Made by a program: the position numbers and the translations under genes. Shown piece after piece: positions 7,983-12,097 of a stretch of 64,000 nt of DNA. The DNA is taken from positions 124,001 to 188,000 of the forward strand of contig JAKFWA010000055.1 in the NCBI GenBank assembly GCA_021732995.1, written 5' to 3'. The stretch's first letter is position 1; every line of letters begins with the position of its first letter. The DNA is from Planctomycetaceae bacterium. GTDB taxonomy: Bacteria > Planctomycetota > Planctomycetia > Planctomycetales > Planctomycetaceae. The notes below the pieces were generated by a model. That model was given only the letters and a program-made list of their open reading frames with translations. It was not told the origin of the DNA and made no database searches.

Positions 7983-8153
7983 TCGCTCCAAGCGACGAAG
8001 CCTCGTATCTGCGGAGAACCCCTCACAAGAGACTCGTCTTGCGGGGAACGGTCATTACATTACGACTGCACAGCAGCAGTGACGACCAGGCGCACGGCGC
8101 GTCACTTCAGCAGACTTCGCGTCCGTGAAAGCAATCCAAGGGGAGCGTGTGGC

Positions 8154-9374
8154 ATGAAGATTGAAGACGTCATTGCGATGCTGAAGAAGGGTGGCTTGTT
8201 GAGTGCCGCGGAATGCGACGCCCAGTTGTCGGCGTTCCAGCGATCAGGTTCATCCAACGACGACACCAGCGCCTTTGTCTGGTCACTGGTAGATCAGCGA
8301 CTACTCACCGGCTTTCAAGCTCAAGGCATCCTTGCAGGTATTCCCGGACCGTATGCGCTTGGACCTTATCGAGTTTCTGCGCGGATCTCGGTTGGCAACC
8401 TCGGTGACCTGTTCCACGCCGAGCACGCTGAGTTTCACCAGCCGGTCAGCCTGAAAGTCTTTCCGCCTTCACTGAATCAGAACACCGAATTGATGCTGCG
8501 CCTTGGCCGCGAAGCACGCGTCAGTGCAGAGGTCAGCCATCCGAATGTTGTGCGGACCTTGCAGGTCGGCAAAGTGGGCACCGTACCGTTCATCGCCATG
8601 GAGCCGCTCGACGGCGAAACGCTCGGTCAGCGCCTGGCTCGTGTCGGTCGTCTGGGCATCGAAGAGGCCTGCGACATCATCCGCCAGGCTGCGCTGGGTC
8701 TGGACTATCTGCATCACGAAGGTGTGATTCACCGCGATATCCGTCCCAACAACCTGTGGGTTGGCTCGAACGGCGTGGTCAAGATCATGGAATTCGGCGC
8801 CGCGATCGATGCGCTGTCGTACCTGGATTCTCTCGGCGACGACGAAAACGAAGGCGCCCTGACGATCAGCGACAATCAGGAAAGCATCATCGGCCACTAC
8901 GACTATATGTCCGCCGAACAGGCGGCGAATCCTCACGACGCCGATGTGTCGAGTGACCTCTACAGCCTCGGCTGCACCTTCTACCACTGTCTCACCGGGC
9001 AGGTGCCGTTCCCGGACAAGAACCCCGTTCGACAGATGCTGCGACACTCGAACGAAACCCCGAAGCCGCTGACCACTTTCATCCCGGATGTCGGCAACGC
9101 CGTTGTGGGTATCGTCGACCAGTTGCTGGCCAAGAGCAAACAGGACCGCTTCCGTGCCGCGTCTGTGCTGGCCGAAACCCTCGCCCTGATCGTCCCGCCG
9201 ACGGAAGCTCCGCCGGTAGACGCCATCAACTCCGACTTCCTGAACTGGCTCCAATCCGACCGCCGCGACGAACTGCAAGACGTCGGCTACGAACCCGAAG
9301 CCGAAGCCTTCATGGAATGGCTGACCCACACCCGCTTCGACGAAATGGACGCCGCGCGAGCCGGAAGGTCGTAG
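8154..9374 (+). CDS. Ser/Thr protein kinase-fold protein with EFG in place of DFG
   Basis: The kinase domain covers about residues 70-350 of 406. Visible landmarks are the lysine strand VSLKVF (Lys101), helix-C Glu120, the catalytic loop HRDIRPNN (His193, Asp195, Asn200), SAEQ at 253-256 where APE is expected, and SDLYSLG (268-274). The metal-binding DFG is EFG here (Glu213 in VKIMEFGAA) and the loop has Arg where HRDxKPxN has Lys, so activity may be reduced or absent. The glycine loop (ISVGNLGDLF) is also relaxed. There is no transmembrane helix. The C-terminal 55 residues are acidic. The start at 8154 follows AAGGGGAG; an in-frame ATG at 8079 adds 25 basic residues and is rejected. Confidence 0.85.
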   Translation: MKIEDVIAMLKKGGLLSAAECDAQLSAFQRSGSSNDDTSAFVWSLVDQRLLTGFQAQGILAGIPGPYALGPYRVSARISVGNLGDLFHAEHAEFHQPVSLKVFPPSLNQNTELMLRLGREARVSAEVSHPNVVRTLQVGKVGTVPFIAMEPLDGETLGQRLARVGRLGIEEACDIIRQAALGLDYLHHEGVIHRDIRPNNLWVGSNGVVKIMEFGAAIDALSYLDSLGDDENEGALTISDNQESIIGHYDYMSAEQAANPHDADVSSDLYSLGCTFYHCLTGQVPFPDKNPVRQMLRHSNETPKPLTTFIPDVGNAVVGIVDQLLAKSKQDRFRAASVLAETLALIVPPTEAPPVDAINSDFLNWLQSDRRDELQDVGYEPEAEAFMEWLTHTRFDEMDAARAGRS

Positions 9375-9514: not shown

Positions 9515-10255
9515 ATGGGCACCAGTCACGACGACTTCTTTAAGTATCCCCGCACACCTCATCTCGTCGGCTCGACAGGCACGAGCGACGACAAGCATTT
9601 GGGTGCGGCTGACTCGGCGCGCTTTCTGGCTGACGACTCGCTGATCGTTGAAGAGAAGCTCGACGGCACGAATGTCGGTATTCACTTCAAAGTGAGCGGA
9701 CAACTTGTGCTGCAGTGCCGAGGTCACGAGATCACCGAGGGCATGCATCCGCAGTACGACCTGTTCAAGCAATGGGTGTCCGTAAAGCGACCGGTTTTCG
9801 AATTGATGTTGGAAGACCGATTCATCCTCTACGGTGAATGGCTCTATGCGCGGCATTCGGTGCATTACCTCGCCCTGCCGCACTACTTCTTTGAGTTCGA
9901 CATCTTTGACAAGAACGTGGGATGCTTTCTCGATCTGGCAACTCGGCAGGAGATGTTGGCAGGCAACGGCATCGAAACGGTGCCGGTCATTCACCGTGGT
10001 GCTGCGACGGTTGAGCAACTCCGCGCTTTGATTGGGGAGTCAGCCTTTGGAGCCCGGTTCGACAACCCGGTGACAAACCGCATCGACACGTTGATGGAAG
10101 GGCTTTATCTGCGAACGGAAGCGAATGGAGTGGTGACTGGACGGGCTAAATTCGTGCGCTCCGAGTTCACCGAACGAGTCAAACAAAGTGAGCACTGGCA
10201 GCATCGGGCACTGGTGCCGAACCAACTCAAAGACGGTGCGGAGATCTGGTCATGA
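9515..10255 (+). CDS. RNA ligase, minimal adenylyltransferase domain
   Basis: The protein has the signature motifs of ATP-dependent RNA ligases of the Rnl2/RNA_ligase superfamily. Motif I is EEKLDGTN with nucleophile Lys48, motif III is [11 protein letters not shown] (105-115), motif IIIa is FFEFDIFD (125-132), motif IV is MEGLYLR (Glu195) and motif V is RAKFVR (Lys212). It is predicted to form a lysyl-AMP and seal nicked or broken RNA. At 246 residues it has only the nucleotidyltransferase core and no separate C-terminal domain. Its last four bases (ATGA) overlap the start of the next gene, an HD-Pnk end-healing enzyme, which supports a joint role in repair. The ribosome site (GAGA) is weak. 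A DNA substrate cannot be excluded from sequence. Confidence 0.87.
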
Positions 10256-11361
10256 CCAAGTGGCAGAAACTTACTGCTCAGTCATTCGGCGAGATCCTCG
10301 ACTGGGCCGCCAACCAATCCTGGGTTCAAGAGATGGCTGCCTGCCAGCAAGACGCGATCTGGCATGCGGAAGGCGATGTGTGGACTCACACAAAACTCGT
10401 CTGCGGCGAGCTGGAACGGCTGGCCGAGTGGTCTGACCTGGATCGGCCGCAGCAGCTCAAGCTGTTCTTCACAGCGCTGTTTCATGACTCCGGAAAACCG
10501 GCAACGACGTGCATCGATCCTGAAACCGGACGCACGCGATCTCACGGGCATGCTGCTGTCGGTGTAGCGGTTGCTCGGCGAGTGCTGAGGGAACTGGACT
10601 GTGACTTCGCAACGCGAGAAGCGATCTGCAATCTCGTCGCGTACCACGGACGCCCGCCATACCTGCTGGAGAAATCGAGTCCGGAACTCGAAGTCATTCG
10701 CTTGTCGTGGATGGTTGAGAATCGATTGCTCTACTTGTTCGCCCTGGCCGACACGCGCGGTCGGTTGGCACGCGAGATGTCGCGTTCCGAAGACACGCTG
10801 CACATGTGGAAGCTGGCGTGCGAAGAGCAAACCTGCTTCGACCAGCCGTACCCGTTTGCGAACGACCACGCGCGGTTCTTGTTCTTCCGCCAGCAGCTGA
10901 GCCACCCGACGTATGCACCGCATGAGAGTTATCGCTGCACGATGACTCTCATGTCCGGCTTGCCTGGAGCAGGTAAAGACACTTGGCTGGCCAGAACCCG
11001 ACCGGGCCTGCCGGTTGTTTCGCTGGACGAAATCCGCGACGGCTTGGAGATCGACCCCACGGACAAGCAGGGCGAGGTCATTCAAGCCGCGCGCGAGCAA
11101 TGCCGTATTCATCTACGAGCGGGCCGAGACTTCTCCTTCAACGCAACGAATGTCTCAAAGCAACTGCGGCAGCGTTGGATCGATCTGGCTCATGACTATC
11201 AGGCTCGTGCGGAGATCGTGTACTGCGAACCTCCACTCGCGATAGTGCTTGCTCAGAACAAGCGCCGACCCGAGCCCGTACCTGACAAAGTAATTCTCAG
11301 CTTGTGCGAACGCGTTGAGCCGCCCAGCATCACGGAATGCCACCAGCTTTCCGTAGTCTGA
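10252..11361 (+). CDS. HD-domain phosphoesterase / polynucleotide 5'-kinase fusion (HD-Pnk)
   Basis: Two domains are visible in 369 residues. The N-terminal HD domain (about 1-200) has its metal ligands at His46, His78-Asp79 (ALFHDSGKP), His98/His100, His132 and Asp167 (ALADTRGR). The C-terminal P-loop kinase (about 228-350) has GLPGAGKDT (236-244), the acidic general-base segment SLDEIRD (258-263) and a basic lid [13 protein letters not shown]. The same architecture in Runella slithyformis HD-Pnk removes 2',3'-cyclic or terminal phosphates and phosphorylates 5'-OH ends, which is the healing needed before ligation. It is translationally coupled to the RNA ligase by a 4-base overlap. Function here is by homology; substrate is untested. 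It converges with the mazF-type gene. Confidence 0.85.
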
Positions 11362-11369
11362 ATAGCTCA

Positions 11370-11729
11370 CTAAGAAGTCTTGAGACTCAGGGCCACCTGT
11401 AAGCAAGAGTCTGCTTGGCACATCTGCGAGACGCTCAGTTTCCCGAGCGTTCGCAGGATCGCCGATTGATCGACAGTGAAGAGATTCACGAACACGGCCA
11501 ACGATGGCCCAATCAAACCACTACTTGCACCATCCTTGGTAGTTGGGTCAACGAGCAGATGCGTTGGCTCATGCGATCTCCGGATGTTACCGGTGATCAT
11601 CGCAACGATGGTCTTCGGCAGGCGTTGATTGTCCGTATCGTTTTGAATAACCAATGCTGGCCTGACTTTGCTCTGCTTTCCATTTGTGAATGGAAAGTTG
11701 AGTATCACCACGTCACCGCGGTGGACCAT
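11370..11729 (-). CDS. MazF/PemK-family toxin
   Basis: A 119-residue protein with the MazF landmarks HRGDVVILNFPFTNGK and KVRPALVIQND at the N-terminus, and GLIGPSLAVFVNLFTVDQ in the second half, the usual dimer and RNA-binding strands. MazF proteins are sequence-specific endoribonucleases. The ribosome site GAGGAG, 6 bases before the ATG, lies in the last codons of the antitoxin gene, whose stop ends 2 bases before this start, so the two are translationally coupled. Placing a toxin that cuts RNA next to an RNA repair operon may be chance, since they are on opposite strands and convergent. Confidence 0.88.
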   Translation of the reverse strand: MVHRGDVVILNFPFTNGKQSKVRPALVIQNDTDNQRLPKTIVAMITGNIRRSHEPTHLLVDPTTKDGASSGLIGPSLAVFVNLFTVDQSAILRTLGKLSVSQMCQADSCLQVALSLKTS

Positions 11730-11731
11730 CT

Positions 11732-11980
11732 TCAGCTCCTCATACCTTGGTAGGAATCGAGCAGAGGGTCATCGGAATCGTATTCGCTCATCGCGTCGTC
11801 GATCAGCGCGCCCACGTCGACGTCTTCACCAGACTCGGCCAGAGCCTGCCGACAGATCCTTTCGTAGGTTTTCTCTGGCAAAAGCACAAAGACTTCCTTC
11901 GAAACGGGATCCAGCACTCGCTTGGGCGTTTCCTGATCAGCCGTCGCGAGTGCATGTTGCTCGATCGTCAGTTCGATCAT
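11732..11980 (-). CDS. Putative antitoxin of MazF-type pair
   Basis: An 82-residue acidic protein directly upstream of and coupled to the MazF-like toxin. It begins MIELTIEQHALATADQE, continues with a short strand region (RVLDPVSKEVFVLLPEKTYERI), and ends in an acidic tail (DAMSEYDSDDPLLDSYQG) of the kind that wraps MazF. It does not resemble the AbrB-fold MazE I know, so it may be a planctomycete-type antitoxin; the call rests on position and composition. The ATG at 11980 is preferred to the GTG at 11989 because AAAGGTGG sits 5 bases before it. Confidence 0.7.
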   Translation of the reverse strand: MIELTIEQHALATADQETPKRVLDPVSKEVFVLLPEKTYERICRQALAESGEDVDVGALIDDAMSEYDSDDPLLDSYQGMRS

Positions 11981-12097
11981 CACGTCCACCTTTCACCATC
12001 AGCTTCGTTTCAGCAGAGAGCTGAGGATAACTGGGTCATTGATCCCGCTGCGATAAGTCTTCCTGGTTTATTAGGTCCGTCGGTCGTAACCGCAAAC

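Follow-up and report, generated by a model that had tools for sequence, protein, structure and literature searches.

The locus considered here raises the question of whether two overlapping genes can between them mend broken nucleic acid ends and, if so, whether those ends belong to RNA or to DNA. It lies in a 64,000-nucleotide stretch of a Planctomycetaceae genome (contig JAKFWA010000055.1, positions 124,001 to 188,000 of the forward strand), which we analyzed at full length and refer to as the window; its features are numbered from its first nucleotide. An initial annotation, made from the DNA letters, had read an RNA ligase gene and an HD-Pnk gene at positions 9515–11361 as a complete cut-heal-seal pathway, possibly for tRNA or DNA cut by a nuclease. 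We consider it probable that the pair is a two-gene RNA end-repair operon of the heal-and-seal type, because the domains and motifs of the two proteins, their RNA-ligase-like and Pnk-like folds, the coupling of their genes and the RNA-repair genes that neighbour them in relatives all point in this direction.

The first gene (9515–10255, + strand, stop codon included) starts with ATG and encodes a protein of 246 amino acids, which matches the Pfam family RNA_ligase (PF09414, E = 6.9e-32) over residues 42–212, above the curated cut-off. The nucleotidyltransferase motifs by which an ATP-dependent RNA ligase is recognized are all present, in segments that we take to be motifs I (EEKLDGTN), III (GEWLYA), IIIa (FEFDIFD), IV (EGLYLR) and V (GRAKFVR). 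The motif I lysine, Lys48 (codon 9656–9658, + strand), is the predicted AMP acceptor and is shared by all 45 ligases aligned. Since 34 residues remain after Lys212, and the AlphaFold model (mean pLDDT 93.4) builds them as one further helix and a tail, the protein lacks a C-terminal domain; within this tail, His227-Trp228 is invariant in the alignment. In a structure search, the first ranks were taken by a Naegleria RNA ligase, the trypanosome (T. brucei) editing ligase and RNA ligases of archaea. T4 Rnl2 followed closely, and viral, human and replicative DNA ligases ranked lower; the TM-scores, by query, were about 0.4–0.6 overall and about 0.5–0.6 for the Naegleria, T. brucei and T4 enzymes. 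Judged by profile and model, the protein belongs to the RNA-ligase family and is predicted to join 3′-OH and 5′-phosphate RNA ends.

The second gene (10252–11361, + strand, stop codon included) also starts with ATG and encodes a 369-residue fusion of an HD phosphohydrolase with a polynucleotide kinase. The HD domain occupies residues 44–137 (10381–10662, + strand; Pfam HD PF01966, E = 2.9e-7) and the P-loop kinase domain residues 231–358 (10942–11325, + strand; AAA_33 PF13671, E = 4.9e-22), both above their curated cut-offs. The features of the HD-Pnk family are thus found together: an HD domain followed by a P-loop kinase in one chain, the HD pair, the P-loop lysine and the Asp-x-x-Arg element. 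Eight residues are invariant in 49 of 49 aligned HD-Pnks, namely His46, His78, Asp79 and Asp167 of the HD part, the last of which lies beyond the Pfam HD match that includes the other three, and Lys242 (P-loop), Asp259, Arg262 and Arg306 of the kinase part. The AlphaFold model has a mean pLDDT of 95.7. When the kinase half was used for a structure search, mammalian PNKP and Clostridium thermocellum Pnk appeared in the first ranks, P-loop kinases of other kinds (PFKFB3, for example) were found among them, and T4 Pnk came at rank 43; by profile, the HD half matched a poly(A)-polymerase in its HD domain. From sequence and model, we predict HD-Pnk to be a 2′,3′-phosphoesterase and 5′-kinase. The protein architecture proposed in the initial annotation, a motif-bearing ligase without a C-terminal domain and an HD-kinase fusion, is therefore borne out, as are the catalytic residues that it had named (Lys48, His78/Asp79 and the P-loop lysine).

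The stop codon of the ligase gene and the start codon of the HD-Pnk gene overlap by four bases, ATGA (10252–10255, + strand), as had been noted. To what extent the two genes travel together was assessed in two collections. Of 294 same-phylum genomes searched at E ≤ 1e-20, 13 carried HD-Pnk, 16 carried the ligase and 12 carried both, a co-occurrence with a Fisher p of 3e-17 when relatedness is ignored. The two genes were adjacent or overlapping in 10 of the 12 genomes with both. In G191, the ligase gene runs into one contig end and the HD-Pnk gene lies near the end of another contig. In G181 (locus L131), an insertion of about 1.5 kb with inverted ends and a 462-aa ORF sits within the HD-Pnk gene and, by its sequence, looks like an insertion sequence; HD-Pnk is therefore dispensable or dead in that genome. 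Within the family of the window's genome, the pair is patchy, occurring in 6 of 17 sampled genomes.

The second collection consisted of named GTDB genomes, from which we took the best 80 of at least 521 HD-Pnk relatives, so that the counts hold for the closest relatives. The ligase profile matched at 72 of these 80 loci, strongly at 63 and distantly at nine (E from 1e-9 to 1e-25; L068, L074, L089, L096, L098, L099, L105, L106 and L111), the distant ligases forming a clade of their own. The ligase gene lay upstream of HD-Pnk at 71 of the 72 ligase-bearing loci and downstream at L105. When a script assigned the start codons, the two genes shared 1–23 bases at 44 of the 72 loci, exactly four bases at 24 of these, and were separated by 2–206 bases at 26. 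No ligase match was obtained at the remaining eight loci. Three of them (L064, L072 and L087) start near a contig edge; the other five (L093, L102, L112, L113 and L114) are not at an edge and showed no RNA ligase among two neighbouring ORFs each. Because of these five, which count against the RNA end-repair reading, we regard the coupling as strong but not universal; the conservation of the two genes as neighbours, proposed earlier as a check, was confirmed in these terms. A single 649-aa frame in Yoonia maritima (L058) was considered as a natural ligase–HD-Pnk fusion and rejected, its junction being a frameshift by comparison with sister loci.

Trees were built from 48 of the 80 HD-Pnk loci and 44 of the 72 ligase loci, each with the window added. 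The HD-Pnk loci in the tree came from nine phyla (Planctomycetota, Verrucomicrobiota, Cyanobacteriota, Pseudomonadota, Acidobacteriota, Actinomycetota, Myxococcota, Chloroflexota and Bacteroidota), and the nearest named relatives belonged to Planctomycetota and Verrucomicrobiota. At L045, HD-Pnk falls in the clade of the window and the ligase in the other clade, a mismatch that suggests partner exchange. Both genes also had matches among mobile-element records: 43 plasmids and one phage for HD-Pnk, and 42 plasmids and 28 phages for the ligase. They occurred together at five such loci (L030–L034), from D. radiodurans, Variovorax, P. aeruginosa, Sphaerospermopsis and an uncultured phage, with one intervening gene in D. 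radiodurans and Variovorax. The Variovorax intervening gene (L031, 5576–5920, + strand) encodes a 115-aa protein that appears HNH-like by eye; at the phage locus (L034), a stretch similar to this protein lies in the open frame of the ligase.

Genes of RNA repair recur around the pair in some relatives. At the best-matching locus of the named-relative scan (L035, Limisphaerales; HD-Pnk 66%), RlaP genes flank the pair, the second of them spread over two frames. At L044, a Hen1 gene truncated by the contig edge is followed by ligase, HD-Pnk and Pnkp; at L046, the order is Thg1-like, ligase, HD-Pnk, Hen1, Pnkp; and in the same-phylum genome G048 (L129), it is ligase, HD-Pnk, Hen1, one ORF that Pfam does not match, Pnkp and two RlaP genes. 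The clusters of G238 and G181 look like that of G048, as judged by their ORFs, a minority of which were searched against Pfam. The ORF between Hen1 and Pnkp in G048 encodes 307 aa (L129, 8394–9317, + strand), and by eye it is resembled by an ORF in the equivalent position in G181 (L131, 8246–9148). In G238 and G181, the ligase gene is preceded at a distance of about 4 kb by a Thg1-like gene; in G283 (L132) and at L043, such a gene lies directly upstream. At five cyanobacterial loci, HD-Pnk is followed by a gene for one protein that combines MJ1316, endonuclease/phosphatase, 2H and poly(A)-polymerase domains. Among the 17 sampled genomes of the window's family, the five with a Thg1-like gene all fall within the six with the pair (p = 0.001; p = 0.03 after collapsing by hand to genera). 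That bacterial Thg1 is linked to a polynucleotide kinase, and in some cases to an RNA ligase as well, was described in 2010 (PMC2904730). Our literature search for RlaP returned unrelated papers only.

Because the pair in several relatives keeps company with Hen1, Pnkp, RlaP, Thg1-like and MJ1316/2H/PAP genes, RNA is favoured over DNA as its substrate. Several observations count against an RNA end-repair role. The window's own pair has no Hen1, Pnkp, RlaP, Thg1-like or MJ1316/2H/PAP gene alongside, and the same is true of most of the 80 loci in the searches made, by phmmer in the available flanks and by Pfam in the nearest ORFs. On the upstream side, the Pfam scan covered 58 of the 74 nearest ORFs, and on the downstream side 60 of the 78, its results being the 25 commonest families. 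Outside the family of the window's genome, the association of Thg1 with the pair is not significant (one of six pair genomes, p = 0.3). Moreover, the window's genome has two RtcB genes, which could already seal cut tRNA; they are on contigs other than that of the pair, and no RtcB gene adjoins it, in agreement with the earlier statement that this is not the RtcB/RtcA arrangement. The parallel statement about Pnkp/Hen1 holds for the window and its genome, in which the models TIGR04075 and TIGR04074 give partial matches only, far below cut-off, but it does not extend to those relatives whose pairs lie within Hen1/Pnkp clusters. The window's genome does contain a Thg1-like gene elsewhere (contig G000:C7, L141); an ORF overlapping it on the upstream side resembles a P-loop kinase.

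In some relatives, the ligase gene is immediately preceded by a further gene, which encodes a small SAM methyltransferase of class I. This arrangement was seen at 11 of the 80 loci, themselves the best 80 of at least 521 (L045, L059, L065, L077, L090, L091, L092, L094, L097, L103 and L108), with a four-base overlap between the methyltransferase and ligase genes at six of the 11, and also at same-phylum loci L009–L012. Whole-genome searches in two phyla, at the strict cut-offs of 1e-25 and 1e-20 and with up to 10 or 7 candidates scored per genome, recovered the family from 5 of 294 genomes in one phylum and from 4 of 396 in the other. The methyltransferase gene adjoins the ligase gene in 8 of these 9 copies, a count that is partly circular because the query rows were chosen from copies next to a ligase; four of the nine genomes (G118, G149, G264 and G322) had contributed such rows. 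Among the five that had not, it adjoins the ligase gene in G178 and G191 (both already seen as such) and in G377 and G672, and in G389 it is not next to a ligase gene within a 1.5-kb flank. At the search cut-off, no methyltransferase of this family was detected in the window's genome, nor did the plasmid collection yield a match at E ≤ 1e-20. In the genomes searched, the protein thus appears, by gene position, to be mostly a partner of the pair.

The methyltransferase shares with Hen1 the Glu-x-x-Glu-His element and a distal His, which we take to be the metal ligands of Hen1; they are invariant and align with three Hen1 rows. The pattern E-V-x-E-H is common in other SAM methyltransferases as well. 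Comparison by hhalign gave 97% probability for Hen1, the sole family so compared. Hen1 had first been suggested by the alignment with Hen1 rows and by a structure search that was biased, its profile containing Hen1 rows. A clean profile scored 5.9e-10 against Hen1 structures and 1.3e-10 against another methyltransferase, and in NCBIfam Hen1 matched 10 of 13 members while MftM matched all 13 and had the better E-values, the scores of both models falling far short of cut-off. As Hen1 did not stand out with the clean profile and NCBIfam ranked MftM first, we treat Hen1 as no more than a candidate identity. The protein might be a compact counterpart of Hen1, and that it 2′-O-methylates RNA is a guess. 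Pnkp/Hen1 carries out repair with protection, and we put forward, as a speculation that we hold to be rather unlikely, that methyltransferase, minimal ligase and HD-Pnk, whose genes adjoin or overlap, form a third self-contained bacterial system of this kind, which would heal the ends, methylate the 2′-OH of the repaired end and seal. If so, the repaired RNA would resist a second cut, other parts would do the job of Pnkp/Hen1, and the two-gene form in the window would be the version without protection. A methyltransferase that mostly adjoins the pair in the genomes searched in any case offers a concrete lead, open to testing, towards a second way of combining repair with protection. In the literature searched, we found no description of the methyltransferase trio or of the composite clusters, although Burroughs and Aravind (2016) may already depict them.

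How the pair itself would work we infer, for each chemical step, from the enzyme families. The breaks would come from metal-independent RNases. The HD domain would take the 2′,3′-cyclic or terminal phosphate off the upstream fragment, the kinase domain would phosphorylate the 5′-OH of the downstream fragment, and the ligase, adenylated on Lys48, would connect the 5′-phosphate with the 3′-OH. Our conjecture for the likeliest substrate is a tRNA cut by a ribotoxin. It is likewise a conjecture, made already in the initial annotation, that HD-Pnk supplies the substrate recognition in place of the missing C-terminal domain of the ligase.

The genes on either side of the pair in the window, and other possible roles of the pair, were also considered. 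Upstream lies a Ser/Thr protein kinase gene (8079–9374, + strand; Pfam, PADLOC), whose high PADLOC score for PD-T4-6 probably arises just because it encodes a kinase. The pair itself was considered as a defence system and rejected: PADLOC found nothing for the ligase and a weak Cas3 match for HD-Pnk. On the other side, a MazF/PemK-like toxin gene (11370–11729, − strand; PF02452, E = 3.7e-20) is convergent with the HD-Pnk gene, with 8 bases between their ends, and is preceded by an 85-aa ORF without a Pfam match (11732–11989, − strand). MazF cuts leave ends of the kind that HD-Pnk heals, and the pair could be a dedicated repair kit for this toxin, in keeping with the strong profile match, the close spacing and the fact that the genome, at 9.39 Mb, has only three matches to the PemK family. 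Yet when 97 loci were searched with a profile from 15 PemK sequences, a PemK-type gene was found near the pair in one, the window's own, at least 11 of the other 96 having only about 1.5 kb of flank; queries with single sequences agreed. We therefore do not use the MazF-like neighbour as evidence, and consider a dedicated link very improbable. Programmed RNA processing, such as tRNA maturation, splicing-like joining or, in some genomes, Thg1-like 5′-end editing, would agree with the Thg1-like, RlaP or poly(A)-polymerase-type nucleotidyltransferase genes that adjoin the pair in some relatives. However, a system present in 6 of 17 family genomes, carried on plasmids and in a phage and interrupted by an insertion in one copy is dispensable and mobile, unlike core maturation enzymes, and this makes such a function improbable.

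The remaining alternative is a DNA break end-healing operon, in which HD-Pnk would clear 3′-phosphates and phosphorylate 5′-OH ends and either its partner or a house-keeping DNA ligase would seal. The window's HD-Pnk is homologous to that of D. radiodurans, which reportedly aids radiation resistance, and the Runella HD-Pnk is said to be active on DNA ends. Radiation induces the D. radiodurans operon, which was proposed to form a DNA double-strand-break repair complex, and its HD-Pnk has 5′-kinase activity on DNA (PMC1997131, PMC1274311). This operon counts against the RNA end-repair reading, as does the lack of detected ligation in vitro by its ligase, DRB0100. On the other hand, the model of the window's ligase is nearest to RNA ligases, the recurring neighbours of the pair in relatives are RNA-repair genes, and a strain with disrupted DRB0100 was fully radiation-resistant (PMC1978522). 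A DNA function therefore seems unlikely to us, and of the two substrates named in the initial annotation we retain RNA and give less weight to DNA. We prefer RNA end repair, for which the pair is a compact and experimentally tractable heal-and-seal candidate; the comparative evidence pointing to an RNA substrate is that Hen1, Pnkp, RlaP and Thg1-like genes accompany it in several relatives.

The pair can be set beside several known systems. The RtcB/RtcA pathway acts on the same kind of broken ends, but its enzymes and chemistry differ from those of the pair. Known kinase-phosphatase-ligase complexes are similar to the pair in predicted activities, although the phosphatase here is of the HD type, unlike theirs. 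Compared with Pnkp/Hen1, the window's genome has no Hen1 above cut-off. The HD-Pnk of Runella slithyformis resembles the window's in having an N-terminal HD and a C-terminal Pnk, a likeness of domain order; Munir and Shuman reportedly noted in 2017 that its homologues frequently share an operon with a putative ATP-dependent ligase. The closest parallel in gene arrangement that we compared is the D. radiodurans operon DRB0100-DRB0099-DRB0098, which encodes a ligase, a PARG-like macrodomain protein and HD-Pnk (PMC1997131, PMC11833690). As in the window, the ligase gene comes first, HD-Pnk comes last and the genes overlap; the middle gene, a macrodomain/PARG match to TIGR02452, is absent between the two genes of the window. 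The window's HD-Pnk is 30% identical to DRB0098 over residues 25–367, and the ligases, both small (DRB0100 has 210 aa), are far apart at 29% identity. Since DRB0100 was adenylated but DNA or RNA ligation by it was not detected in vitro (PMC1997131), sealing by the window's ligase cannot be assumed; a complete heal-and-seal pathway, as first proposed, stands as the best reading of the conserved pair, with its sealing step left conditional. The ligase/HD-Pnk pair is already a known arrangement, published in D. radiodurans, and the window adds to it a two-gene example without the macrodomain.
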